The notes under the pieces are model-generated. The model was given only the letters and a program-made list of their open reading frames with translations. It was not told where the DNA came from and did not search any database. A DNA stretch of 64,000 nucleotides, taken from NCBI GenBank assembly GCA_029262065.1, contig JAJDAC010000042.1, positions 1-64,000 of the forward strand. The letters are read 5' to 3'. Shown here in pieces: positions 3,001-45,579 of this stretch; position 1 is the stretch's first letter, and the number at the start of each line of letters is the position of its first letter. The DNA comes from Candidatus Krumholzibacteriota bacterium (GTDB lineage: Bacteria > Krumholzibacteriota > Krumholzibacteriia > JAJRXK01). The position numbers and the translations under genes are program-made.

Positions 3001-5621
3001 AGGACCTTCAGCGTGTCCCCATCAACGGGACCCAACGCGTGCGTAAGGCGAGCCAGGCCCGGCGAAGCCGTCTGTACCACACCAGGACTCAGAAAATCCG
3101 CGACGCCAGGATCCAACGAAGTCCAGATGACCGCCGCGGTCTCGTCTTGTTGGGTCCCGTCGCTGTAGGTGCCAATGGAAGCTACCTGGTGAGTCACACC
3201 CGCGGGCACGGTGGTCGAGTCGGGGGCCCCGTCGAGGGCCACGAGCACCGGCGGAGACACTTGAATGGTCGAGAGATCGCTATCGATTCCTCCCAGGTCG
3301 GCCTGCACCACGCCAGTGCCCTCGGCGAGGGTATTGACGACGCCGTCCGCGCCAATATCCACCACGGCGGGGACCAACGAAGACCAGTTCACGATCTCGG
3401 TCAGGTCCTGTACGTCGCCGTCGGTAAAACTGCCCCAGGCAGTCAGCGGAACCGGGAGCCCCAGCGCCACGGTCGTGTCGGTGGGAGCCAGTGACAACGC
3501 CAACAATTCACGCGGAGTCACGTCAAGCGTCGCAAGGGGCGCCAGGAACCCCGACAGTTCCGCACCGACCTGCGTGGACCCGATGGCCACTCCCAGCAGC
3601 GTACCCGGACCCACCAGGTTGGCCACACCCGAGTCAGCCACGTTCCAGTTGGCACTGTTCGTCACGTCCTGCGCCTGGCCGTCACTCATCTGAGCGAATG
3701 CCGCGAACCCAACCTGAGCACCTTCGGCCACACTCTGCGCGGACGGGGAAATCGATAGTCCCTCCATGACCGGCGGGTCTACAACGACGGTTGCCTGAGC
3801 TGAGACGACCGACAGATAGGTAGCCTCGACCCAACCGCCACCTTCGATCTCGGTGGTGAGCTCTGAATTGTCGAAGGTACCCAGTGAACTCGGCGTGACA
3901 TCCCAGGAGACCAGATCAGTAACGTCGGAGCTGGAAAGATCGTTGTAGTAAGCCGTCGCGGTGTAGGGGATCATCTGGCCGAGGGCCACCGTGGTGTCCG
4001 AAGGGGACACCACGAGCGAGTCGAGCGTGCGCCCTGCCGTTTTCACGATGAGACTGGCCCCGTCGAGAAAATTGCCGTTCGCTTCGCCGGCAAACGCCGT
4101 CTGCACGGGATGGCCGCGTCGATCCTGGTCGACCGAGGTTGTGAACTCCTGACCGATGGGATCCTCGGCCAACGGAGACAGCGCACGGAACCAGATGTCT
4201 ACACGGTTCGAAAATGCTGGCGTGTTGTCACGAAGCCGAATGTCGATGTCGCCTTCATTGCTCCAAATCAACCATTCTCCGGCGTCCTGGAAACCCAGAT
4301 CGGTCCCCTGCTTCAGAACCTGGCCGTCCAATGCTACCGAGTCGATGCTCGACAACGTAAAACCGGCGGGAACCTGGGTGTAGATGCGGTTCAGACCGGT
4401 TCCCGAAAACTGCGTGGGGTCCACGCTCAGGATGAACTGCACCTCGGTGTTCGCGGCGACTTCGGTAGGGTGGATTTCGGCGGAAGCCCAAGACACGGCT
4501 ACCTCGTCGTACGCCCCCTCGGGCGCCTCGATCATCGTCAGCCGCGCTGGCGGAAATGTCTTCAGGGCCGCGTCGCGCGCGCCAAATTCAGCGGCAGCGA
4601 ATTGGCTTGTGGTAGACGAGACTATGGCGACCCCGAAGGGATCGGCCGAGCCGGTTCGCCAGTCGTCGGCCAGACTGGTCAAGTCAAATCCAAGGTGGAC
4701 GTCGGTGGGAGTCAAGGTTTGCGCAGCGGCAACCCCGCTGTTGAAGTCTCCTCCGTTTGGCCAACCACTACCGCAATCGGGAGACTGCCAGGTAACACCC
4801 TGCACACACGATGTCCCATCCTGCACACCCTCAACCCAGGGGGACTCCATCTGGTGAAGCGTCAACGAAATGTCTTTGGTCAGCGCCTGCGTGGACCAAA
4901 CATCGAACCAGGCCGATCGCAGCTCCGTTCCCGCCAGCAAGAGTCCAACCGACCCGAAGTCGAAGTTGACGAACGCGTTCTCCTTGAAGCCATTGGTGCC
5001 CCAGACTTGAACACGTTCTGACGCGCCCCAGTTTCGGTCGCGAAAGGCGTTGGACGCGAACGCGTCCGCACTGGTTTCCAACCCGGTGGACCAGGCCTGT
5101 TCGTCTTCGATGCGGGTGACCATGGCCGCGAGATCGAACGTGCCCGATTCCAGATCCAAGAGAGCGTCGTGCTCGATCACGTCACCCACGGCACCGGTGG
5201 CCACGAGCACAAGGCGCACCTCCACTGAACCCGGCAGGTACCCTGACAGGTCGACCGACACGGTTTGGGCGTCCACGAAGACGATTCCCGCGCCGTCGAT
5301 CTGCGGTGTGCCATTCAACAACACCGAGTTGGGTTGGTACGCTGCTCCATCGGGCAGGCGATAGTCGAGGCTCCCACTGAAGCCGAGAATTCCGCTTTCC
5401 TGGAATTGAATGGCCACTTCGAACAGGTCGCCGGTGGCCACCAGATCGGTCGCGGGGGAAAAGGCGACCGTATCGAGGGAAGCATGTGCCACGGAGGCCA
5501 GTACCGCCGTATGGCAGAACGCGGCAGTGAGGCAAGACGCACGCACGCGCCCGCTGGCCGAGGCGAGGACTCGCCGTGGCTTCCAGGCAAGGAGCGAGGA
5601 ATGTAACCTATGCAATTGCAT
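1..5621 (-). CDS. Giant secreted protein with DNRLRE-like and BIG_2 Ig-like modules (partial, C-terminus off window)
   Basis: Open without a stop from about 5621 to the left edge, so at least 1,873 residues are present and the C-terminus is missing. ATG at 5621 is the furthest start; GTG at 5546 would place a signal peptide (hydrophobic stretch ending ASVAHA|S) right at the N-terminus and may be the true start. Neither has a clear Shine-Dalgarno site. After a beta-rich N-terminal domain comes a DNRLRE-like region (about residues 185-335; pattern ADAFASNAFRDRNWG, later AFVNFDF). Seven Ig-like modules of the BIG_2 type follow (about residues 530-1140), each with a 'SLxVxPSxxxVxxGxxxxxxAxxxYxDGxxxDVTxxxxW' pattern and a period of about 85-88 residues. 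The remainder holds looser repeats with Asp/Asn-rich loops (LFEDNGDGAFNP, LWLDDDNNQVISDSD) resembling calcium-binding turns. Probably an exported or surface structural/adhesive protein; ligand unknown. Confidence 0.8.
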   Translation of the reverse strand, partial: MQLHRLHSSLLAWKPRRVLASASGRVRASCLTAAFCHTAVLASVAHASLDTVAFSPATDLVATGDLFEVAIQFQESGILGFSGSLDYRLPDGAAYQPNSVLLNGTPQIDGAGIVFVDAQTVSVDLSGYLPGSVEVRLVLVATGAVGDVIEHDALLDLESGTFDLAAMVTRIEDEQAWSTGLETSADAFASNAFRDRNWGASERVQVWGTNGFKENAFVNFDFGSVGLLLAGTELRSAWFDVWSTQALTKDISLTLHQMESPWVEGVQDGTSCVQGVTWQSPDCGSGWPNGGDFNSGVAAAQTLTPTDVHLGFDLTSLADDWRTGSADPFGVAIVSSTTSQFAAAEFGARDAALKTFPPARLTMIEAPEGAYDEVAVSWASAEIHPTEVAANTEVQFILSVDPTQFSGTGLNRIYTQVPAGFTLSSIDSVALDGQVLKQGTDLGFQDAGEWLIWSNEGDIDIRLRDNTPAFSNRVDIWFRALSPLAEDPIGQEFTTSVDQDRRGHPVQTAFAGEANGNFLDGASLIVKTAGRTLDSLVVSPSDTTVALGQMIPYTATAYYNDLSSSDVTDLVSWDVTPSSLGTFDNSELTTEIEGGGWVEATYLSVVSAQATVVVDPPVMEGLSISPSAQSVAEGAQVGFAAFAQMSDGQAQDVTNSANWNVADSGVANLVGPGTLLGVAIGSTQVGAELSGFLAPLATLDVTPRELLALSLAPTDTTVALGLPVPLTAWGSFTDGDVQDLTEIVNWSSLVPAVVDIGADGVVNTLAEGTGVVQADLGGIDSDLSTIQVSPPVLVALDGAPDSTTVPAGVTHQVASIGTYSDGTQQDETAAVIWTSLDPGVADFLSPGVVQTASPGLARLTHALGPVDGDTLKVLVTAVAIDSLVVNPSAVTLPQGVQVPLTAIAHYNDGSTLDVSDQANWNAVDAPVATVDSQGVLTTVAEGSTSVDAMFQSQTSNSVPVVVDNASLDALDIVPLSVEIPVGSTAPFAAYGTVGADVYDLTSSVNWSVGSPAIASIDSAGVATALAEGVTTVSASLGAVFASDATITVDPPEVLSLVITPSIASILRGQTKQFVANASLTDGSVVDVTSISTWTSSSPSIAFIDPNGLVTGVGLGSATLGASYNGVAAPSVGVSVLPSVSVLTQPTGHVESNPGDLTQQALTLRITNGYLNTRVLTALRVQTRPSQTAPVGDLKSQPPPVPVIPTPDQDGFERLQLFEDNGDGAFNPVSDTQLDQGTTANGTWTATGLNLNLGVGVTKTLFVTGDVSLTEVAHGDTLNATVQQSAHLFWSQPTALVSDGFPLDSVGEIEVRDLVLAQIVPVPAVADTIAPGATGVLALQFLAPGDGPKSDSLIGTTLEQVGTAGPNDIDQIRLQRDAGNGDWRDVAGLSHIGGNVWSAGGFSVTVPSNGTSIRALVDLSRDAELGSSVQLALLSNGLQYDSGRVGPVDGAYSNPNSILVDVVPTLQVREFQVAGPATVLRDNTPASMLAFELFPIVAAADSLLAIEARNWSHAGSDSLDQSHTQFSVVQLWHDLDLSRGVSAGDLILDQASLDAGGVARLSPRVVLEPGVALPLVMALLPDSTRVRDDERMRLALTGTSAFTTRGGLEIDYTSGVDTLTTAAPFPVVDGQSARGYDLRPVAGGLAFAGASKVPLLDILVPSNGEANDELDAMVLVNTGTASPQDLAAVQLWLDDDNNQVISDSDLLLGNMQSSGQTWVASAIKLPLTFGSPRRVFVTMDLPSSLTDGGTVQMLLGTNGLQVASGNDGPTDVALVGGEPYSMAESDEVTWVAEPVSAIPIVAPNVAGRVILSVSAFNGYGTARSLAGIVVDRGGDASEFEYLTWSLHPDTNGNGLLDGNEPPLAVAPDSGVQLR

Positions 5622-5737
5622 ACATGCGCAGCGGCCCGAACGCGAATCCGCGCCTGGCTCATGACCACGAGGATGTCTGTTTCCGGAGCCAACCATTGGC
5701 CCCACACGGCGTTGCAGCGGCAAGCCACATGCCGCCT

Positions 5738-5767
5738 TTGACCGCGGAGCGAACGTTGCTCTATTCT
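5738..5767 (+). promoter_or_regulatory. Sigma-70-like promoter for the DUF4301 gene
   Basis: TTGACC at 5738-5743 and TATTCT at 5762-5767 are separated by 18 bp. Transcription would start near 5774, about 40 bp before the GTG start at 5816. The 5622-5815 interval also has to hold the divergent promoter of the giant minus-strand gene, for which I see no clear hexamers. Confidence 0.45.
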
Positions 5768-5815
5768 GGAAGATCGTGTCCGAGAACCAGTCACCGTGCC
5801 CTCACGAGGAAGTTT

Positions 5816-7333
5816 GTGGAACACCACGACCTGAACGACCGCGACCTGGAACAATTGACCACTCGCGGCATCACAGCGACGGAGATCGAACGACAACTGG
5901 ATCGTCTGCGGAGCGGGTTCGACTCCATCGATCTGGCGCGCGCCTGCACCGTGGGTGACGGAATCGAACGCATTGACACCGAAGGTCACGCGCACTACAT
6001 AGACGCCCACGAGCAGGCCATGCGTGACGACCGCGTCGGCAAGTTCGTGCCTGCCTCGGGCGCCGCCAGCCGCATGTTCGCCGCGCTCGACCGTGTCTTG
6101 AACACGGTCGAGTCCATTGCCGACCGGGACCTGGACGGGTGGGAAGCGGGCGAAGACCCGGCGCGACGCGACGTGGCGCGGTTTCTTCGTCAGATCCATC
6201 GGTTCGCGTTCTCGTCGCAGCTGCCGGCGCCGGACAAGGCGAACCTTCGACCAGTTCTGGAGCACCTGCTCACCGAATCCGGCCTGAACTTCAGGGTACT
6301 GCCGAAAGGGCTCATCCCCTTTCACCGCTACGGATCAACCACACGCACCTCGTTCGAAGAACACCTGGCCGAAGCCGCGCAGTACGTCTCGCCACCCGTC
6401 GGGGAAACCGAACTGCACTTTACCGTGGCCACGGATTTCGCCGACGCGGTTCGCGCGCACCTCGAAGGCTCGGAACTCAAGAGGCTCGCTCGGTTCCGTC
6501 TGGATTTTTCTACGCAGCTGGCATCTACCGACACCATGGCCGCCCACGCCGATGGCCGGCCGCTAAGAGACGCCCAGGGCGACCTCATGATGCGACCCGG
6601 CGGCCACGGAGCACTGCTGACCAATCTGGCCGTCATGGGCGGCGATATCGTTTTTATCAAGAACATCGACAACGTCGTGCCCGACCACCTGCGTGACGAG
6701 ACGATTCACTACAAGAAGCTGTTGGGTGGAGTGCTCGCCGATCGTCAACGCCAGAGTTTCCAGTGGTTACAACGCCTGAAGTCCAACCAGGCCGACCTGA
6801 AGGAGGCGTTGGTGTTCCTACGGGAGAGCCTCCACGTCGAGCCACCCGACGGCATCGAAAATGATGACTCAGGCCTACGCACGTACCTGATCGATCGATT
6901 CGATCGGCCGCTTCGCGTATGCGGCATGGTCCGCAACGAGGGCGAACCGGGCGGCGGTCCGTTCTGGGTCCGCACCAGTTCGGGGGAAACCACGCTGCAA
7001 ATCGTGGAGGGCGCCCAGATCGATTCCAACAGCACTTCTCAGAAAAGCATCTTCGCGCAGTCGACGCACTTCAATCCGGTCGACCTGGTGTGCGGACTCA
7101 GAAACGCTCAGGGACGGGCCTATGATCTGCAGGATTTCGTGGACGAGGATATGGGAATCCTCACCGAGAAATCGAAGGATGGCCAGACCGTCCGGGCCCT
7201 GGAACATCCTGGACTCTGGAATGGTTCGATGGCGCGTTGGAACACCGTGTTCGTGGAGGTCCCCATTGCGACGTTCACGCCCGTGAAGACCGTGCTGGAC
7301 CTTCTTCGTCCCTCCCACCAACCGCTGGCCTGA
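5816..7333 (+). CDS. DUF4301 family protein
   Basis: 505 residues from a GTG start preceded by an AGGAAG-type ribosome-binding site at 5807-5812. In-frame codons further upstream exist but run across the promoter, so they are not used. The protein matches the DUF4301 family by the conserved block KFVPASGAASRM (residues 76-87), the KGLIPFHRY segment and the GGHGALL / FIKNIDNVVPD segments. The family is known mostly from Bacteroidetes and has a nucleotidyltransferase-like look (glycine-rich and KGLIPFH motifs recall sugar-nucleotide pyrophosphorylases), but no reaction is established to my knowledge. No signal peptide, so cytoplasmic. It stands alone and converges on the TPR gene at 7437, with a shared terminator between. 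Length is typical of the family. Confidence 0.85.
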   Translation: MEHHDLNDRDLEQLTTRGITATEIERQLDRLRSGFDSIDLARACTVGDGIERIDTEGHAHYIDAHEQAMRDDRVGKFVPASGAASRMFAALDRVLNTVESIADRDLDGWEAGEDPARRDVARFLRQIHRFAFSSQLPAPDKANLRPVLEHLLTESGLNFRVLPKGLIPFHRYGSTTRTSFEEHLAEAAQYVSPPVGETELHFTVATDFADAVRAHLEGSELKRLARFRLDFSTQLASTDTMAAHADGRPLRDAQGDLMMRPGGHGALLTNLAVMGGDIVFIKNIDNVVPDHLRDETIHYKKLLGGVLADRQRQSFQWLQRLKSNQADLKEALVFLRESLHVEPPDGIENDDSGLRTYLIDRFDRPLRVCGMVRNEGEPGGGPFWVRTSSGETTLQIVEGAQIDSNSTSQKSIFAQSTHFNPVDLVCGLRNAQGRAYDLQDFVDEDMGILTEKSKDGQTVRALEHPGLWNGSMARWNTVFVEVPIATFTPVKTVLDLLRPSHQPLA

Positions 7334-38912: not shown

Positions 38913-39397
38913 ACGAACCCGCGCCCTATCGTCACACCCAGACCGCGACGCTCCTGCTCCTGGGAGCTGGCGCTCTGCTTGTCATATTTACCGCGGTCCT
39001 TGTCTCGACCGGCGGTAACACCCTAATTTTCGCGGGAACCCTCCTCGCGGCGGTGGCCTTGCTCATGAATCACAGCATCGCGGTCTCAGTCGATTTCAAC
39101 GAGGTCGAGGTCCGCGTGGGGAACGGCTGGCTGCGGCGCAGTGTCCGGCTAACCGAAGTAGCCAATGCACGCATCGTGGAGGTCGGCGCCAACGGTGGCT
39201 TGATTGCCCGGCGCAGCCAGCGCGGTTGGGTGTTTGCCGCGCGAGCGGGAAGCGCAGTGCAGGTGGAAACCCGCGCCGGCGACGTGTTGGTCATCGGCAG
39301 CGATGAGAGTCAGGTCCTGTTGGCCGCGATCGAGCGGCTTCGCGCGTTCGCACTGGATTCGATGGATTCCGAGAACCCGGCCGCGGAGCAGCAATGA
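38909..39397 (+). CDS. Small membrane protein with bacterial PH-like domain
   Basis: 162 residues; ATG overlaps the upstream stop by 4 bp. Two hydrophobic segments (about 15-35 and 40-55) are followed by a beta-rich module (VSVDFNEVEVRVGNGWLRRSVRLTEVANARIVE, about 58-150) resembling the bacterial PH-like (bPH2/YdbS) fold. The hinge and basic WLRRSVR strand are typical of such domains. Function unknown; the coupling on both sides to glycosyltransferases suggests a role in the same membrane process. Confidence 0.6.
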   Translation: MNEPAPYRHTQTATLLLLGAGALLVIFTAVLVSTGGNTLIFAGTLLAAVALLMNHSIAVSVDFNEVEVRVGNGWLRRSVRLTEVANARIVEVGANGGLIARRSQRGWVFAARAGSAVQVETRAGDVLVIGSDESQVLLAAIERLRAFALDSMDSENPAAEQQ

Positions 39398-41448
39398 CCG
39401 ACGATCAACCCATCCCATTCGCCGGCTCGCCGCTCACGCTTTCGCTGGCGGCCCAGACCCTCCTGGTCATCGCGGTGGTGTTCGGACTATTCGCCGTCGT
39501 CTTCCACCAGGGCTTCCACATGGTCCTGGACGGACAGTGGTTGTTGGGCGGCCAATTGCTTGCGAATGGCGGATCGCTGCCACGCGATCTGGTTACGCAC
39601 GACGGTCTGGGTCGCTACTGGTTGCTCAAAGCGTGGCCGGAGGCCAGCGCCTCCGGGCTGGCGATGCTCAAGGCGTTGTTGGCGGCGGTCACGGCCGGTG
39701 CCGGTTTTCTGTTCGCTCGACGCATGGGTGCGGGCGCCTTCGCGTGGATCGTGCCCGTGGGCGTGGTAGCCCTGGGGGGCAGCGAACCCGGATGGTGTAT
39801 TGCGGCGGTGCTGGTCGCGCTTCTCAGCGGCGGTGGAAATTCACGCATCGCTCTGGTCGCGGCTGGTGCGCTGGCCGGCTGGATGCTGTGGTTCGGGGTT
39901 TTCTTCGCAGGGCTGGGTCTGGCGCTGATGGCCGCGGCTTGGCGCTCGGGCGACGCCCGTGGCCGCGGAATGAGCCTGGGTGCCTGGCTGGTGTTGGTGC
40001 TCTGGCTCGTGGTACCGGTGATTCGCCAGGGCGATCTGGCGACGGTCTGGGCCGAGCACGTGCAACACGTCGCCATGCGGTGGTGGCAAACCGACCCGGG
40101 TCCCCACCACGCCTGGTGGAACACGCTGACGAACACCGAACGCCTTGGCCGTCCTTTCGCGAATGTGTTCTCGGGCGAATCCCTGTCCGCGGCCTGGCCA
40201 GCCCACGGAACTGGACTGATCGGCGCAACGTGGCTCCGCCTGGCGTTGGCGTTGAGCGTCGGGCCGACCGCGTGGTTCGCCCTACGCTCTCGTACGGGGG
40301 GAACGTTGGCCGCGATCATGGCCACCGGCACGCTGGTGGCCAGCCTGACGTACCCCGGCAACGCGCAGGCACTCGCACACAATTTCGTGGGAGTACTGTT
40401 GGCCGCGCCTCTCCTTCTCACGCGCTGGTCGAAAGCGCGACCGCTCCTGGTGCCACTTTGCACGGTAATGCTGATGACCGGGGCGTTCCTACCGTCGTTG
40501 GCCGAGAACCTCTGGCTCGTACTCAACCAGAATCGCTCCGGTCTGGTGGAATGGGACCAACCGCGCGCCAAAGTGCGCATGTCCGAAGCATGGGTCGACA
40601 ACCTCGAGTCGGTCTTCGCCCGGTTCACCAATAGCGACGGCGAGGTGCCTCCCATGCTCATCTGGCCGCGTGGTAGCGGTCTGCACGCCTTGTTGGGTGT
40701 TCCCCTGGTGACGCGGCAAGCCACACTGCTGGCTGGCGACAACGCGGGCGCGGCCTTCGATGAGTTGCAGTCGAATCCGCCGATCACCGTTCTGCTGGGC
40801 CTGAACCGGAGCTTCACGGGAAGATCGATCGCGCGGGACAGTCCCGACCTGTGGGACTTCTTCCGCATCAACTACGCCGTGCGCGGCAACGTCGAGGCGG
40901 CTGGAAGCGGATTCCGGGTTCTCACGTACCAAAGCGGCGGCGCCGACGCGCTGGCGCAGCTTACCCTTCCGCAACGCCTTCCCGATCTTGAGTTGTCAGT
41001 GGCGAATGAGGCCGGGCCTCGGCTTCGACCAGGACTCACGGTGGGCCAGAGCGTACAGACGGGCCGCCGCGATTTGGCGGGAGTAGCGGTTCGTTGGAGC
41101 CTGCAGGCACCGGCACCGGGTCAAGCCGAGGAGATGGTTCTGCCGATACGGGTTCGCATCTGGCAGAAGCGCGAGGAGAAATACGATGCCTTGCTCGAGT
41201 TCTTCGACGTTTCGATCGCGGTTCCACGCGATCAGCATCGCAGCTATCTTCGTTTCGGACCGGTCCTTGACTCGGCCGGGAAGGACCTGGCGATCACGTT
41301 CGAATTGCGCGAAGAGACCGAGCGCGAAGTCGCTTTGTACTGGCACCGTCATGATCACGGAGGCGTGGAGCGCGATTTCTACCCCGAGGGTGACGCCCTG
41401 CTGAACCTGCGCCCGACGGCCGCCGACCTCTATTTCTTCGTGTTCTGA
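39394..41448 (+). CDS. Polytopic membrane protein, GT-C-like, with soluble C-terminal domain
   Basis: 684 residues; ATG overlaps the previous stop (ATGA). Around ten transmembrane segments lie between residues 18 and 370. The first loop (FHMVLDGQWLLGGQLLANGG, then THDGLGRYW) has the acidic/aromatic character of GT-C enzymes. Residues about 390-684 are soluble and probably periplasmic, ending in a beta-rich domain with RRDLAGVAVRWSL and VALYWHRHDHGG. No named family recognised. The stop at 41448 directly borders an AT-rich spacer. Confidence 0.55.
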   Translation: MTDDQPIPFAGSPLTLSLAAQTLLVIAVVFGLFAVVFHQGFHMVLDGQWLLGGQLLANGGSLPRDLVTHDGLGRYWLLKAWPEASASGLAMLKALLAAVTAGAGFLFARRMGAGAFAWIVPVGVVALGGSEPGWCIAAVLVALLSGGGNSRIALVAAGALAGWMLWFGVFFAGLGLALMAAAWRSGDARGRGMSLGAWLVLVLWLVVPVIRQGDLATVWAEHVQHVAMRWWQTDPGPHHAWWNTLTNTERLGRPFANVFSGESLSAAWPAHGTGLIGATWLRLALALSVGPTAWFALRSRTGGTLAAIMATGTLVASLTYPGNAQALAHNFVGVLLAAPLLLTRWSKARPLLVPLCTVMLMTGAFLPSLAENLWLVLNQNRSGLVEWDQPRAKVRMSEAWVDNLESVFARFTNSDGEVPPMLIWPRGSGLHALLGVPLVTRQATLLAGDNAGAAFDELQSNPPITVLLGLNRSFTGRSIARDSPDLWDFFRINYAVRGNVEAAGSGFRVLTYQSGGADALAQLTLPQRLPDLELSVANEAGPRLRPGLTVGQSVQTGRRDLAGVAVRWSLQAPAPGQAEEMVLPIRVRIWQKREEKYDALLEFFDVSIAVPRDQHRSYLRFGPVLDSAGKDLAITFELREETEREVALYWHRHDHGGVERDFYPEGDALLNLRPTAADLYFFVF

Positions 41449-41555
41449 ATTATAGCCTTATAATATTATTAATTGCGACAATACTATTTTTCAGCTATTT
41501 AGTAGACGGTCAGGAGCAATATTCCAAATATATAGCCTTTTAAGGATATATTCCC
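41449..41555 (+). promoter_or_regulatory. AT-rich regulatory region of the SatD cassette
   Basis: 107 bp that are strikingly AT-rich in a high-GC window. Promoter-like TTGCGA (41473-41478), 17-bp spacer, TATTTA (41496-41501). A 13-bp direct repeat with one mismatch, TATAGCCTTATAA (41451-41463) and TATAGCCTTTTAA (41531-41543), flanks it. The second copy is part of a dyad, AATATAT...CCTT/AAGG...ATATATT (41527-41552), that covers the AAGGA ribosome-binding site at 41542-41546, so protein or RNA structure there could control translation or transcription. Confidence 0.55.
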
Positions 41556-42206
41556 ATGCCCAACGCCGCTTGCCTCACGACAGATCTGGTCGCGTCCAAG
41601 AAAATCACGGCGCGCTCAGAGGTCCAGAACCAGGTCGAACGGGCCCTCCAAAGCGTGAACCAGTCACACGCGGGTCTGCTCGCCGTGCCCCTTGGCATCA
41701 CCGTGGGCGACGAATGGCAGGGGTTGGCGCACGACCTGGCGGGCGCGATCGAAGTGGACTTCGAGGTCCGTCGCGCCGTGTATCCAAACCGGGTACGAAG
41801 CGGCATTGGCTGGGGCGCGGTCGCCACGGAATTTCGCGAGCGCAGCGCGTTGATGGACGGGCCGTGCTTCCATCGGTCCCGCGCGGCAATGACGCTGGCG
41901 AAGAAGCAACCGGGAAGCGCTACCCTGCTCGAAACAGGGAATCCAGGGATCGACAATTTCATGAACTCCATGAACGCCATCCTCGCCGCGTTGTTTGACG
42001 ACTGGACAGCCAAACAGTTCGCATCGGTCATGGCGTATCTCGACCACGGTACCGAAGCGCGTGCCGCCGATCATCTGGGGGTACGACAACCCACCCTGCA
42101 CAAGAGCCTGGCCGGCGCCCACGGCAAGGAATACCTGGACGCGCTCGCGGCTCAGCGCGAATTTCTCCGCAGCAACATCCCTTCTTCCGCCGGAGTTGAA
42201 TCATGA
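41556..42206 (+). CDS. SatD family protein
   Basis: 216 residues; ATG with AAGGA nine bases upstream. The order of motifs fits SatD (secretion and acid tolerance) proteins: a conserved VPLGITVGDEWQGL block, then VRSGIGWGAVATEF, then MDGPCFHRSRAAM, and a C-terminal helix-turn-helix (EARAADHLGVRQPTLHKSL). The family is annotated from streptococcal sat genes but its biochemistry is unknown; the HTH suggests DNA binding. Its stop overlaps the next start (ATGA), pairing it with a membrane protein related to DUF3307 C-termini, an association seen in other bacteria. The AT-rich leader is unlike any other in the window and may mark acquired regulation. Confidence 0.72.
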   Translation: MPNAACLTTDLVASKKITARSEVQNQVERALQSVNQSHAGLLAVPLGITVGDEWQGLAHDLAGAIEVDFEVRRAVYPNRVRSGIGWGAVATEFRERSALMDGPCFHRSRAAMTLAKKQPGSATLLETGNPGIDNFMNSMNAILAALFDDWTAKQFASVMAYLDHGTEARAADHLGVRQPTLHKSLAGAHGKEYLDALAAQREFLRSNIPSSAGVES

Positions 42207-42583
42207 CCGAACGCGACCTCTGGTTGCTGGGCGCCTATTTCATCGCCGTGCTCGTGGGAGCTCCGCTGGTAACGCTGGCCCTGAAGATCCTGGTACGGCG
42301 AGAAGATCGCGAGACGATCGGCGCGTTCAAACAGGGTGGCTTGAGACTGGGCGGAATGATCATTGGCGCGCTCGAGCGCACGCTGGTGCTGACCATCGTA
42401 TTGTTGGGAGAGTTCGGCGCCATCGGCCTGATCCTGGCCGCCAAGGGACTCATTCGCTACGGCGAAATCAAGGAGGCCCGCAATCAGAAGGTGGCGGAAT
42501 ACGTTTTGATCGGCACCATGCTCAGCATGCTATGGGCGGTCCTGGTGGGCCAGCTGTGGCTACGCTTTGCTCCGGCCGCCTGA
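42203..42583 (+). CDS. Small membrane protein related to the C-terminus of DUF3307 proteins
   Basis: 126 residues; ATG overlaps the SatD stop. Three hydrophobic segments (LLGAYFIAVLVGAPLVTLAL, LVLTIVLLGEFGAIGLILAA, YVLIGTMLSMLWAVLVGQLW). The stretch GALERTLVLTIVLLGEFGAIG with AKGLIRYGEIKEARNQKVAEYVLIGT resembles the C-terminal part of DUF3307 membrane proteins, which often neighbour satD; the usual N-terminal DUF3307 domain is absent, so this is a short version. Inner-membrane location is clear, function unknown. Convergent with speE (5 bp between stops). Confidence 0.6.
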   Translation: MTERDLWLLGAYFIAVLVGAPLVTLALKILVRREDRETIGAFKQGGLRLGGMIIGALERTLVLTIVLLGEFGAIGLILAAKGLIRYGEIKEARNQKVAEYVLIGTMLSMLWAVLVGQLWLRFAPAA

Positions 42584-42588
42584 GACAG

Positions 42589-43530
42589 TCAGGGACCCGT
42601 TTCCACCAGGGATTGAAACGAACCGTAGGCTCCGCCACCGGCCAACGCCCGCTTCACGAAATTCGGCAGGGCGAATGCACCGCGTTGCAGGTCGGGGTTG
42701 TAGTACTTGCACTCGCGCCCCAAACGCTCGGCCCGCTCGCTATCGAAGAACGTGTCGTGCTCACGGTGGTTGCTGGCGTAGGCCCAGCTCCACATGCCAC
42801 TGGGGTATGTGGGTATGAAACCCAGGTACGGCACCGCGTGGTCGAAGGCCTGCCCCAGCTGGTCGTAGATGGCGCCCACCGTGTCGGGGTTCCAATGCGG
42901 CGACTCGGTTTGCGCCACGAGCACGCCGCCAGCCACCAGCGCCTGCGCCGCCTTGCTGTAGAACTCGCGCGTGAACAAACCCACCGCGGCGCCGATGGGA
43001 TCGGTGCTGTCAATGACGACCAGATCGAACTCTTCACGATGCTGTTCGACGTAGCTTACCCCATCGTCGAACACCAACTCGACCCGCGGGTCGGCAATCG
43101 CCTGCTTTACCCACGGGAAATACTCCTCGCACACGCGGGTGACGCGTTCGTCGATCTCGCACTGGACGATGCGTTCCACACTGGGATGTTTCAAAGCCTC
43201 GCGAATGCAGCCGCCGTCGCCGCCGCCCACGATCAGAACCGCACGTGGCTCGGGAATGCTACACAGCGGCACGTGGATGAGCATCTCGTGGTACACGTAC
43301 TCGTCGCGCTCGGTCAGCATGACCAGATCGTCCAGGGTGAGAAACCGTCCGAAGAAATCGGTGTCGTACACGTCGATCTTCTGAAAACGGGAATTCTCCG
43401 AATGCAGATGGGACTTGGCGCGAATCGCGAATCGCGTGCTGCCATCGGCTTCCTCGTGAAACCACCCATCGGCAAAACCGCCCCGGCCCGCCTTCATGAT
43501 GGCGCCCTGAGGAAGCTTCTCTTCACTCAT
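42589..43530 (-). CDS. speE: Spermidine synthase
   Basis: 313 residues; ATG 43530 with CAGGAG seven bases upstream, overlapping the end of speD by 8 bp. Transfers aminopropyl from decarboxylated AdoMet to putrescine. Motifs: FGRFLTLDDLVMLTERDEYVYHEMLIH, VLIVGGGDGG (dcAdoMet binding), DPRVELVFDDG, and VVIDSTDPIGAAVGLF with the catalytic aspartate. A C-terminal segment (CKYYNPDLQRGAFALP) matches the family end. Paired with speD, this is a complete dcAdoMet-dependent aminopropylation step; putrescine-forming enzymes are not in the window. Confidence 0.95.
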   Translation of the reverse strand: MSEEKLPQGAIMKAGRGGFADGWFHEEADGSTRFAIRAKSHLHSENSRFQKIDVYDTDFFGRFLTLDDLVMLTERDEYVYHEMLIHVPLCSIPEPRAVLIVGGGDGGCIREALKHPSVERIVQCEIDERVTRVCEEYFPWVKQAIADPRVELVFDDGVSYVEQHREEFDLVVIDSTDPIGAAVGLFTREFYSKAAQALVAGGVLVAQTESPHWNPDTVGAIYDQLGQAFDHAVPYLGFIPTYPSGMWSWAYASNHREHDTFFDSERAERLGRECKYYNPDLQRGAFALPNFVKRALAGGGAYGSFQSLVETGP

Positions 43531-43978
43531 GGGCCAACTCCTGGCGAGGACTCGCCGACGCGAACTTGATGGGCGCAATCCGCGACATGATCTTCACGTC
43601 ACTGGGCGCCAGTGTCGCCTCATCACTGATTTCGTCGGGAAGACCGCGCAGGATCTCCTGTTGGCGTCCAGTAGCAGCCCCGAGCTCGCGACCGATCTGC
43701 GCAAAGGCAATGTTGGGGTTGAGTCCACCACACGTATAGATATCCACAGCGACGTATCCGTTCTCGGGCCACGTATGTATGGAAAGATGGGACTCCGCGA
43801 TGACCACGGTGCCGCTTACGCCATGGGGTGAGAATGCGTGGAACGTTTCGCCTACGACCGTAGCGCCCATTTCCGTGGCGGACCGTAGCATCATGTCCCG
43901 AATGAAAGCGACCGAGTTGAGTAGATCTTGCTGGCAATCGTAATACTCGGCAATGAGGTGTCGTCCGATGGTCTTCAT
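43523..43978 (-). CDS. speD: S-adenosylmethionine decarboxylase proenzyme (prokaryotic class 1B)
   Basis: 151 residues, ATG overlapping the serA stop (ATGA). Self-cleaving pyruvoyl enzyme: E62-S63 in AESHLSIHTWPE is the predicted processing site, with His68 and Cys83 (DIYTCGG) at the positions known from the Thermotoga enzyme. It makes decarboxylated AdoMet for SpeE, encoded next with overlapping frames. The C-terminal 30 residues are longer than in minimal homologues and not obviously conserved. Confidence 0.95.
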   Translation of the reverse strand: MKTIGRHLIAEYYDCQQDLLNSVAFIRDMMLRSATEMGATVVGETFHAFSPHGVSGTVVIAESHLSIHTWPENGYVAVDIYTCGGLNPNIAFAQIGRELGAATGRQQEILRGLPDEISDEATLAPSDVKIMSRIAPIKFASASPRQELAHE

Positions 43979-45579
43979 ACGCGACGGCTCCTCTTGGCCC
44001 CAAGACGCACTTGCCGCACGTCTTCGACCTCAGCGATTTCTTTCAGCGCCAATTTCACCTCCAATTCGATCGGTTGATCCACCTGCCAGACACTGATGGC
44101 CTGGCTGGCTTGCGGATCGCGCCCCATGCGGAGCTCCCCGACGTTGATGTTTCGGCTACCCAGAAGAGTGGCCACCTTGCCCAACACACCAGGACGATCC
44201 TGGTTCCAGAGGACCATGAGATCGCCCACGGGTTCGACGTCCATCCACTGGCCGTCGACCCGCACAATCCGTGGAGTATGAGGGGCCAGAAGCCCGCCGT
44301 CTACACCGTGCATGTGGGTCCCATCTGAAACCCGGGTCGAAAGTAATCGGGGAAAGTCTGGTTCACCGGGCCGACGACCGTGCGACAGCGTGATCCCCAT
44401 TTCCTCGGCCTTCAGCTGGGCGTTGACCGCGTTCACCTCGGGACCACAAACCACTTCCAGCAAGCCGGTCAGAAACGCGCTCGCCAGGGGAGCCGGATCT
44501 TCCGAGTCGTCGGTAGCCAGCTCCAGCTCGACGCGCTGGGGAGCACCAAGCAGGAGGCCGCCCTGGAATCGGCCCAGCCGCTGCGCCAGGTCGAGCAACG
44601 GCGCCATCTTGCGCAGGTCGGCGCCGCCGAATGGCAAGTTCACCACCGAGGAAAAATCGCCGTCCCGGAACAGGGCGACCAATGCCCGCGCCAGCGTAAG
44701 GCTGACGTTCTCCTTGGCCTCCTGCGTCGAGGCACCCAAGTGCGGCGTGTGCGACACGCGCGGGTGCCCCAGCAGGGGACTGGACTTCGGCGGCTCCTGG
44801 GGAAACACGTCGACCGCGACGCCGCCGAGTTGGCCCGACTCGAGCGCGGCGGCCACCGCGTCCTCGTCGATGAGCCCGCCCCGGGCACAATTCACGAGTA
44901 TGGTACCCGGCTTCATGCGCGCGATCGATTCGGCGTTGATGAGTTGTTTGGTTTCTTCGGTCAGTGGTAGATGCAAGCTCAGGACATCGCACTCGGCCAC
45001 AAGCCGGTCGAGCTCAACCCGGGTCACGCCCATGGACGCGGCCTTGTCATCGCTGAGGAACGGATCGGTGACCCAGACCTCCATACCGAACGCTTGCGCG
45101 CGGCTGGCGACCAACGATCCCACGCGGCCTACCCCAATCAGCCCGAGACGACGACCCGCCAGCTCGACGCCCAGGAAACGGTGCCGATCCCACTTACCCT
45201 CGGCCAACGAACCATGGGCGGGCGCGACGTGTCGCGCCACGGACAGCATCAGCGCCATGGTGTGCTCGGCCGCGGCGGTCGCGTTGCCGCCGGGCGTGTT
45301 CATGACCGCCACCCCGCGACGTGTCGCCGCCACCAGGTCGATGTTGTCGAGGCCCACGCCGGCGCGCGCAACTGCTTCCAGGTGGGGTGCCTTGGCCATG
45401 AATTCTTCGTCAACCTGGCTACCGCTTCGAATGATCACGGCGGTGGCATCGGCCAACTGTGACTGACGTTCGTCGTCGGTCGCCTTGCTGACATCCACCA
45501 CGTCCAGGCCAGCGTCGCGCATGAGACGAATCCCCGCTTCCGCCACCGGCTCGAGCACAAGAATCTTGTTTGCTTTCAT
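43975..45579 (-). CDS. serA: D-3-phosphoglycerate dehydrogenase
   Basis: 534 residues, the long three-domain form: substrate/NAD domains (residues 1-315; VIIRSGSQVDEEF, GLIGVGRVGSLVASRAQAFG, NCARGGLIDEDA, HTPHLGASTQEAKENV with the catalytic His), an intervening ASB-type domain (about 320-450) and a C-terminal ACT domain (LMVLWNQDRPGVLGKVATLLG) that usually binds serine for feedback inhibition. It oxidises 3-phosphoglycerate, starting serine synthesis. GGAAGG lies 6 bp before the ATG. The gene follows a class V aminotransferase by 14 bp, which probably performs the next step. Confidence 0.95.
   Translation of the reverse strand: MKANKILVLEPVAEAGIRLMRDAGLDVVDVSKATDDERQSQLADATAVIIRSGSQVDEEFMAKAPHLEAVARAGVGLDNIDLVAATRRGVAVMNTPGGNATAAAEHTMALMLSVARHVAPAHGSLAEGKWDRHRFLGVELAGRRLGLIGVGRVGSLVASRAQAFGMEVWVTDPFLSDDKAASMGVTRVELDRLVAECDVLSLHLPLTEETKQLINAESIARMKPGTILVNCARGGLIDEDAVAAALESGQLGGVAVDVFPQEPPKSSPLLGHPRVSHTPHLGASTQEAKENVSLTLARALVALFRDGDFSSVVNLPFGGADLRKMAPLLDLAQRLGRFQGGLLLGAPQRVELELATDDSEDPAPLASAFLTGLLEVVCGPEVNAVNAQLKAEEMGITLSHGRRPGEPDFPRLLSTRVSDGTHMHGVDGGLLAPHTPRIVRVDGQWMDVEPVGDLMVLWNQDRPGVLGKVATLLGSRNINVGELRMGRDPQASQAISVWQVDQPIELEVKLALKEIAEVEDVRQVRLGAKRSRRV

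Follow-up and report, generated by a model that had tools for sequence, protein, structure and literature searches.

Pycsar systems pair a cyclase with a membrane effector and act against phage. In Panoptes, likewise an anti-phage system, a minimal CRISPR polymerase is combined with a membrane effector (PMC12657218). The satCDE genes of Streptococcus mutans are situated with ffh and ylxM in a cluster that has been connected with acid tolerance and protein translocation (PMC12077213). A description of the function of SatD or of DUF3307 was not found in the literature searched. SatE of S. mutans is presumably a DUF3307-type protein.

The locus considered here lies in a stretch of 64,000 nucleotides from a Candidatus Krumholzibacteriota bacterium (contig JAJDAC010000042.1, positions 1 to 64,000 of the forward strand; referred to below as the window). 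It consists of a satD gene, a small membrane protein gene and an AT-rich leader (Table 1), and is read as an autoregulated, probably nucleotide-responsive regulator joined with a membrane partner into one module; the probability of this reading was put at roughly 0.7.

Table 1. Coordinates of the cassette, its flanks and the predicted sites (positions of the window).
Feature	Position	Strand	Remarks
Upstream neighbour, cassette flank	39394..41448	+	684-aa protein w/o Pfam match
SatD–membrane cassette	41449..42588	+	from the upstream gene stop codon to the spermidine synthase stop codon; 1140 bp (1.14 kb)
AT-rich control region with predicted operator array	41449..41555	+	29% G+C, 107 bp
Operator 1 (predicted)	41452..41469	+	ATAGCCTTATAATATTAT; −104 from SatD start; 2 mismatches to ATAGYC-N6-GRCTAT
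Operator 2 (predicted)	41481..41498	+	ATACTATTTTTCAGCTAT; −75; 29 bp after operator 1; 3 mismatches
Operator 3, proximal (predicted)	41532..41549	+	ATAGCCTTTTAAGGATAT; −24
SatD gene	41556..42206	+	216 aa; PF16264 E = 1.4e-18
SatD domain layout			predicted cyclase-fold domain (~residues 1–128), linker helix, C-terminal HTH
Asp10 codon, putative first metal ligand	41583..41585	+	Asp in 92/94 homologues
Gly51-Asp52-Glu53 (GDE) codons, putative second metal ligand	41706..41714	+	D52 92/94, E53 87/94
SatD helix-turn-helix	42009..42119	+	residues 152–188; recognition helix VRQPTLHKSL
Membrane protein gene	42203..42583	+	126 aa; stand-alone C-terminal module of SatD partners
Spermidine synthase, convergent neighbour, cassette flank	42589..43578	−	PF01564 E = 3.2e-56

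Locus layout and origin

The 3' end of satD and the start of the membrane gene are joined by an ATGA overlap. Few stretches of the window are as AT-rich as the leader: only six 107-base segments of the 64 kb fall below its G+C content, and all such segments with 35% G+C or less start at 41421–41462. Both genes match their neighbours in composition (G+C: SatD 63%, membrane gene 61%; GC3: 0.75 and 0.79, respectively, flanking genes 0.77 and 0.78), so that the AT-richness is confined to the leader; recently acquired foreign DNA, judged by composition, was thereby ruled out. A sigma-70 consensus scan of the + strand of the leader gave no promoter. The overlap and the AT-rich 107 bp of the preliminary description were thus confirmed by the coordinates and the base counts, and of the "own AT-rich promoter" that it had proposed the AT-rich leader stood and the promoter did not; predicted operators were located there instead. 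Downstream, on the − strand (42589–45579), genes of spermidine synthase, S-adenosylmethionine decarboxylase and phosphoglycerate dehydrogenase follow one another, which makes this an ordinary neighbourhood for the synthesis of polyamines and serine.

Empty sites were present in two genomes of sister genera belonging to the same family as the host, where the homologues of both flanking genes adjoin each other by their 3' ends: in G007 (L152) these convergent genes are 15 bp apart (ends 2582 and 2598), in G008 (L153) they overlap by 7 bp (ends 3744 and 3750). In a quick tree with many weak branches, the SatD of the window was grouped (support 100) with sequences of a Deferrisomatales and a Deltaproteobacteria assembly, away from the other SatDs of its own phylum. 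Since the sites are empty in two sister genomes and SatD groups with other phyla, the cassette must have been acquired in one piece, most likely through horizontal transfer; the gain would not be recent, because the composition of the cassette is that of the host.

Only the two genes were found between the flanks, and a transposase or integrase was absent between the cassette ends. Phage records and viral contigs yielded no relative of the cassette, and plasmid relatives were confined to four plasmids (200–417 kb, three of them haloarchaeal); phage or plasmid cargo was ruled out on these grounds. A search of PADLOC-DB 2.0.0 gave no match up to E = 1 (a library of 2023, which may lack newer systems, e.g., Panoptes); a known defence system was ruled out by this absence, and nothing ties the cassette directly to phage defence. 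The "mobile or independently regulated module" suggested earlier is retained as regards independent regulation (operator array) and gain as a unit, and dropped as regards a transposase or integrase of its own.

The membrane protein and its pairing with SatD

The 126-aa protein was aligned only with the C-terminal part of the long (about 210–330 aa) SatD partners and gave no Pfam match up to E = 0.1, PF11750 (DUF3307, ~127 positions) included. In the long partner of locus L026 this family covers residues 15–119 of 255 (E = 2.6e-15); "no DUF3307 domain" is therefore the more exact wording, because PF11750 corresponds only to the N-terminal ~105 residues of the long partner. The module pattern G..ER ... 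K...R ... Y.L.GT..S was found directly behind SatD (E = 3e-26), and the invariant residues of the partner module (G55, E58, K81) as well as the near-invariant R59 and R85 are kept in the window protein. Its model is confident (pLDDT 92.6) and comprises helices 3–30, 33–45, 48–68, 71–88 and 92–122; by model and Pfam it consists of helices only, with no soluble nucleotide-binding domain, and Foldseek against PDB gave no fold match (best E = 3.3). A truncated pseudogene was ruled out by the confident fold, the retained invariant residues and the recurrence of the short form in the nearest relatives. Going by these alignments, the 126-aa protein represents the C-terminal module of SatD partners in free-standing form and is not a truncated DUF3307 protein.

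The pairing was followed in 94 SatD homologues; this sample was picked via one conserved motif and is biased towards SatDs bearing MDGxxFH. By automatic search the C-terminal module was located directly downstream of SatD in 57/94; after addition of L027 and L112 (mis-started frames), L033 (contig end) and L037 (broken partner gene), the partner was counted in 61 of 68 homologues when the Calditrichota clade is set aside. An additional conserved part, in many cases DUF3307, is present in most partners, which are long; thirteen are short (86–143 aa). The short form accompanies the nearest SatDs (L040 and L041, then L042, L043 and L116) and occurs also in L035, L036, L048, L075, L085, L109 and L117; L045, of the same group as the window SatD, has no recognised partner. 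When 78 genomes of the host phylum were searched with a profile, the C-terminal module was found at 19 places; at 18 of them it stands directly behind SatD, and the 19th is a fragment. Of these 18 SatDs, 7 (profile E 1e-14 to 1e-27) had escaped the Pfam search of this genome set. Two genes of DUF3307 type that lack the module, one situated at another place in the host genome, are not accompanied by SatD. Because the module follows SatD and module-less DUF3307 does not, the C-terminal module is taken as the SatD partner and DUF3307 as an optional addition.

The alignment with only the C-terminal portion of DUF3307 proteins, given in the preliminary description, was reproduced with the long SatD partners, and its expectation that relatives of SatD usually have the membrane partner agrees with the 61/68 count. 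The label "truncated DUF3307" was given up: the short form recurs and is shared with the nearest relatives, and it is the C-terminal module, not DUF3307, that is tied to SatD. As to a full DUF3307 domain in the partners of relatives, which had been thought to speak against the proposal, it is present in distant relatives and absent in the closest ones.

Several arrangements of these genes in other loci may be recorded here. In L037 (~5964–6182) the coding sequence of the partner breaks off after ~73 residues, and a gene resembling a phage terminase lies nearby; the break is either a prophage insertion or a chimeric contig. The genome of the host encodes a second DUF3307-like protein (L176, G000 contig C57, 3831–4769; 312 aa) with neither the SatD-type C-terminal module nor a SatD beside it. 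In L177 (G013, 3807–7242) a 125-aa DUF3307-only membrane gene immediately follows a class III cyclase gene (855 aa), which adjoins a 133-aa gene apparently for a cyclic-nucleotide-binding protein; this arrangement is an independent link of DUF3307 with cyclase-fold proteins. A 26-member SatD clade of Calditrichota (e.g., L058, L070, L082) has kept the cyclase-fold site, lacks the membrane partner and has almost no operator arrays; in the three loci inspected SatD follows a conserved gene of ~182–187 aa (MSGIKG...).

Obligate pairing and translational coupling, together with the charged residues of the module (E58 and K81 invariant, R59 and R85 near-invariant), would suit a membrane-tethered anti-regulator, i.e., a membrane protein that senses the state of the membrane, binds SatD and pulls it off the operators, nucleotide binding being secondary; the link of the S. 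mutans satCDE–ffh cluster to protein translocation and acid tolerance (PMC12077213) points the same way. The short form, however, exposes little outside the membrane in the model, and contact with SatD is hypothetical, so that this explanation is kept as a tentative possibility; that the state sensed might be, e.g., acid or lipid stress is put forward just as tentatively. A toxin–antitoxin-like pair, with SatD as autorepressing antitoxin and a membrane protein that damages the membrane as toxin when SatD is lost, would agree with the gene order (the regulator precedes the small membrane protein, with an ATGA overlap), with the autoregulatory operator array and with gain as a compact unit; but most partners are long, with the extra conserved part and in many cases DUF3307, SatD persists partnerless with its active site kept in the 26-member Calditrichota clade, and antitoxins are usually devoid of a conserved cyclase-fold site. 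This explanation is regarded as unlikely.

Predicted fold and conserved residues of SatD

The SatD of the window was assigned to PF16264 with 67.8 bits (cut-off 29; residues 8–189) and is thus a member of the SatD family. Its AlphaFold model, obtained with the 94-member alignment, had a mean pLDDT of 96.1 and pTM of 0.92; helices 152–164, 167–174 and 178–188 form the HTH, for which weak profile matches were also obtained. The "SatD-type protein with HTH" noted from the letters alone was accordingly recovered by both the family match and the modelled helices. Foldseek of the model against PDB: Rv1900c cyclase 1ybu_B, E = 2.8e-5, prob 1.00, rmsd 2.5 over 132 columns; class III cyclases in general, prob 1.00, E down to 1.3e-5, in keeping with a cyclase homology domain fold of the modelled structure. 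Among the 50 matches listed nearly all are class III cyclases (including Ma1120, guanylate cyclases and the bacterial cUMP synthase 7r65), the remainder being the GGDEF-like regulator 3onq. Alignment by hhalign with cyclases from related genomes gave probabilities of 1–4% (e.g., 3.7%), and for that reason the cyclase-fold claim rests on the model. In this model, SatD is a class III nucleotide-cyclase fold followed by a helix-turn-helix, and its sequence-profile similarity to cyclases is weak.

Low-scoring profile alignments placed D10 on the first metal Asp and GDE 51–53 on the second one of class III cyclases; the two metal-binding Asp residues would therefore be represented by D10 and D52, their equivalence being taken from these low-scoring alignments. 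Both residues are absent in L038 and L039, of the host's own family, which are also without partner and without significant array. On the helix matching the positions of the cyclase transition-state Asn and Arg, the same low-scoring alignments show a conserved FH, with Arg109 in 61/94 and Asn in 21/94; read from them, SatD has no evident counterpart of the catalytic cyclase Asn, and for this reason SatD is not called a cyclase. The SatDs of L038 (G009) and L039 (G008) are degenerate, with both Asp residues and the partner lost; both genomes also contain another SatD, divergent and partnered (L169, L170).

A signalling pair, in which SatD would be an active enzyme of the nucleotidyl cyclase type, with a product that gates the membrane protein and an HTH that sets the dose, could be built on the class III cyclase fold (the matches include cUMP synthase 7r65), on the conserved metal-site Asp residues, whose loss is restricted to SatDs that have no partner either, and on the obligate membrane partner. 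The conserved FH in place of an evident catalytic Asn, the 126-aa partner devoid of a soluble nucleotide-binding domain and the missing PADLOC match all speak against it, and such an enzyme is considered doubtful.

Leader palindromes, proposed mechanism and comparison with known systems

The window was scanned with a PWM built only from the relatives L040 and L041; among its ~64,000 positions operators 3, 2 and 1 ranked 1, 2 and 6, respectively. Operator 3 is the only site in the window with one mismatch or less to ATAGYC-N6-GRCTAT; when the pattern is relaxed slightly, it is the single site of the 5.77-Mb genome without any mismatch. The summed PWM score was reached by 79/5000 shuffles of the leader, and by 14/5000 when the 28/29 spacing was demanded as well. 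Operators 1 and 2 are imperfect, and the step of 51 bp to operator 3 is off the 28–29-bp register. The 1-mismatch sites in the host genome (24 vs 13 and 11 for a control pattern) are too weak for a wider regulon to be claimed. On sequence grounds the leader of the window holds a three-site operator array.

In the homologues, each leader was scored for repeated palindromes against its own shuffles, and an array was taken as significant when at most 5/100 shuffles reached its score. Significant arrays: partnered SatD 31/60, unpartnered SatD 3/34, other (control) genes 12/300; spacing of adjacent sites of 28 or 29 bp: 58/116, 2/46 and 16/420, respectively. The contrast with the control genes is conservative, because some control leaders likely share the SatD leader (divergent or overlapping frames); about half of the partnered SatD genes showed no array. 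The density of sites was 16.3 per kb in leaders and 0.087 per kb elsewhere in the same loci (~190×), a figure that is partly circular, the half-site having been derived from these same leaders; neither the spacing nor the comparison with control genes is affected by this. In L026, L028 and L066 a further site is found 29 bp on, within the SatD gene. In L050 a second pair of palindromes, 29 bp apart (+627 and +656 from the SatD start), occupies the last part of SatD, in front of the membrane gene, and would suit a separate SatD-controlled promoter for the latter.

That the leader is a mere AT-rich promoter or insertion scar and its palindromes chance products of composition would be in line with the window array taken by itself, which, when the motif of the relatives is left out, is not significant (22/100 shuffles reach its score). 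With a motif drawn only from two other genomes, the leader sites nevertheless take ranks 1, 2 and 6 of the window, and the 28–29-bp register recurs in bacteria and haloarchaea with differing sequences; this explanation is held to be very improbable.

The half-sites vary by group and track the recognition helix of SatD: QPTLH with ATAG (window, L040, L041); STVSE with TTCGG or TTCGC (L066, haloarchaea); EATVSK with TTAGCC; xAVYKN with TCAACC or TGAACC; LQNVEKRC with TCACC. In the divergent L170 (helix SQPTV), ATAGGCTTTTCGAGCTAT and ATAGGCCCTTTTGCCTAT were noted by eye, 29 bp apart. A permutation test of helix against half-site, on pairs with N-domain identity below 45%, gave 1/2000; shared descent could explain part of this covariation. 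The operator covers the −10 zone in 9/14 array loci having a TTGAC(A/G) box, for which reason a repressor role is favoured.

From the computed features (fold, conserved site, operator array, helix–operator covariation, obligate pairing and gain as a unit) we infer the following scheme. SatD would be a one-component transcription regulator, the C-terminal HTH of which binds the three leader palindromes, and it most likely represses the operon of satD and the membrane gene. Its cyclase-fold domain most likely binds a nucleotide and a metal ion, whereby DNA binding would be switched. The translationally coupled membrane protein would be the working end of the SatD switch, as its obligate output, or else its membrane-side input. 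The earlier idea of an independently regulated DNA-binding protein acting with a membrane partner gains support from the operator array and the gain as a unit. A more far-reaching version, rated as rather unlikely, is that SatD and the membrane module form an undescribed nucleotide-signalling system, SatD being a repressor of its own operon that makes or measures a nucleotide; that it controls a dedicated membrane protein of new fold, and that the 28–29-bp register marks a DNA-bound oligomer of the cyclase fold, is equally speculative.

SatD proteins span bacteria and archaea without assigned function, and a widespread gene pair is now given a testable one; fold, operator architecture and obligate partner allow specific experiments on the binding of DNA and of nucleotide and on the activity of the partner. 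If the autoregulated module is the right reading, the sensor of an autoregulated transcription factor with a coupled membrane protein would be a cyclase-fold domain, and a 28–29-bp register kept from Krumholzibacteriota to haloarchaea, with a half-site changing along with the helix, would be a model of regulator–operator co-evolution.

Compared with the known systems, the window protein is a member of the SatD family PF16264, for which a cyclase fold, an operator array or an obligate module was not found described. Among DUF3307 proteins (PF11750), long SatD partners (e.g., that of L026) carry DUF3307 N-terminally, whereas the window protein has only the C-terminal module. Pycsar and Panoptes resemble the cassette in that a small palm- or cyclase-fold protein is paired with a small membrane protein; the cassette differs in the HTH and operator array and in giving no match in the defence library, and, in contrast to Pycsar effectors, its 126-aa partner has no nucleotide-binding domain (helices only, no Pfam domain). 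With class III cyclases (Rv1900c, Ma1120, cUMP synthase) SatD would share the fold of residues ~1–128 and the positions of two metal-site Asp residues, but it possesses a C-terminal HTH, its catalytic Asn is not evident and the sequence similarity is weak. For regulators of the 3onq type we know of no membrane partner or palindrome array. Although 3onq (BAD_0249; GGDEF-like with HTH) is superimposed on SatD with an rmsd of 14 over the whole chain, it has, like SatD, a domain of the cyclase/GGDEF group beside an HTH (Foldseek E = 1.6e-4).
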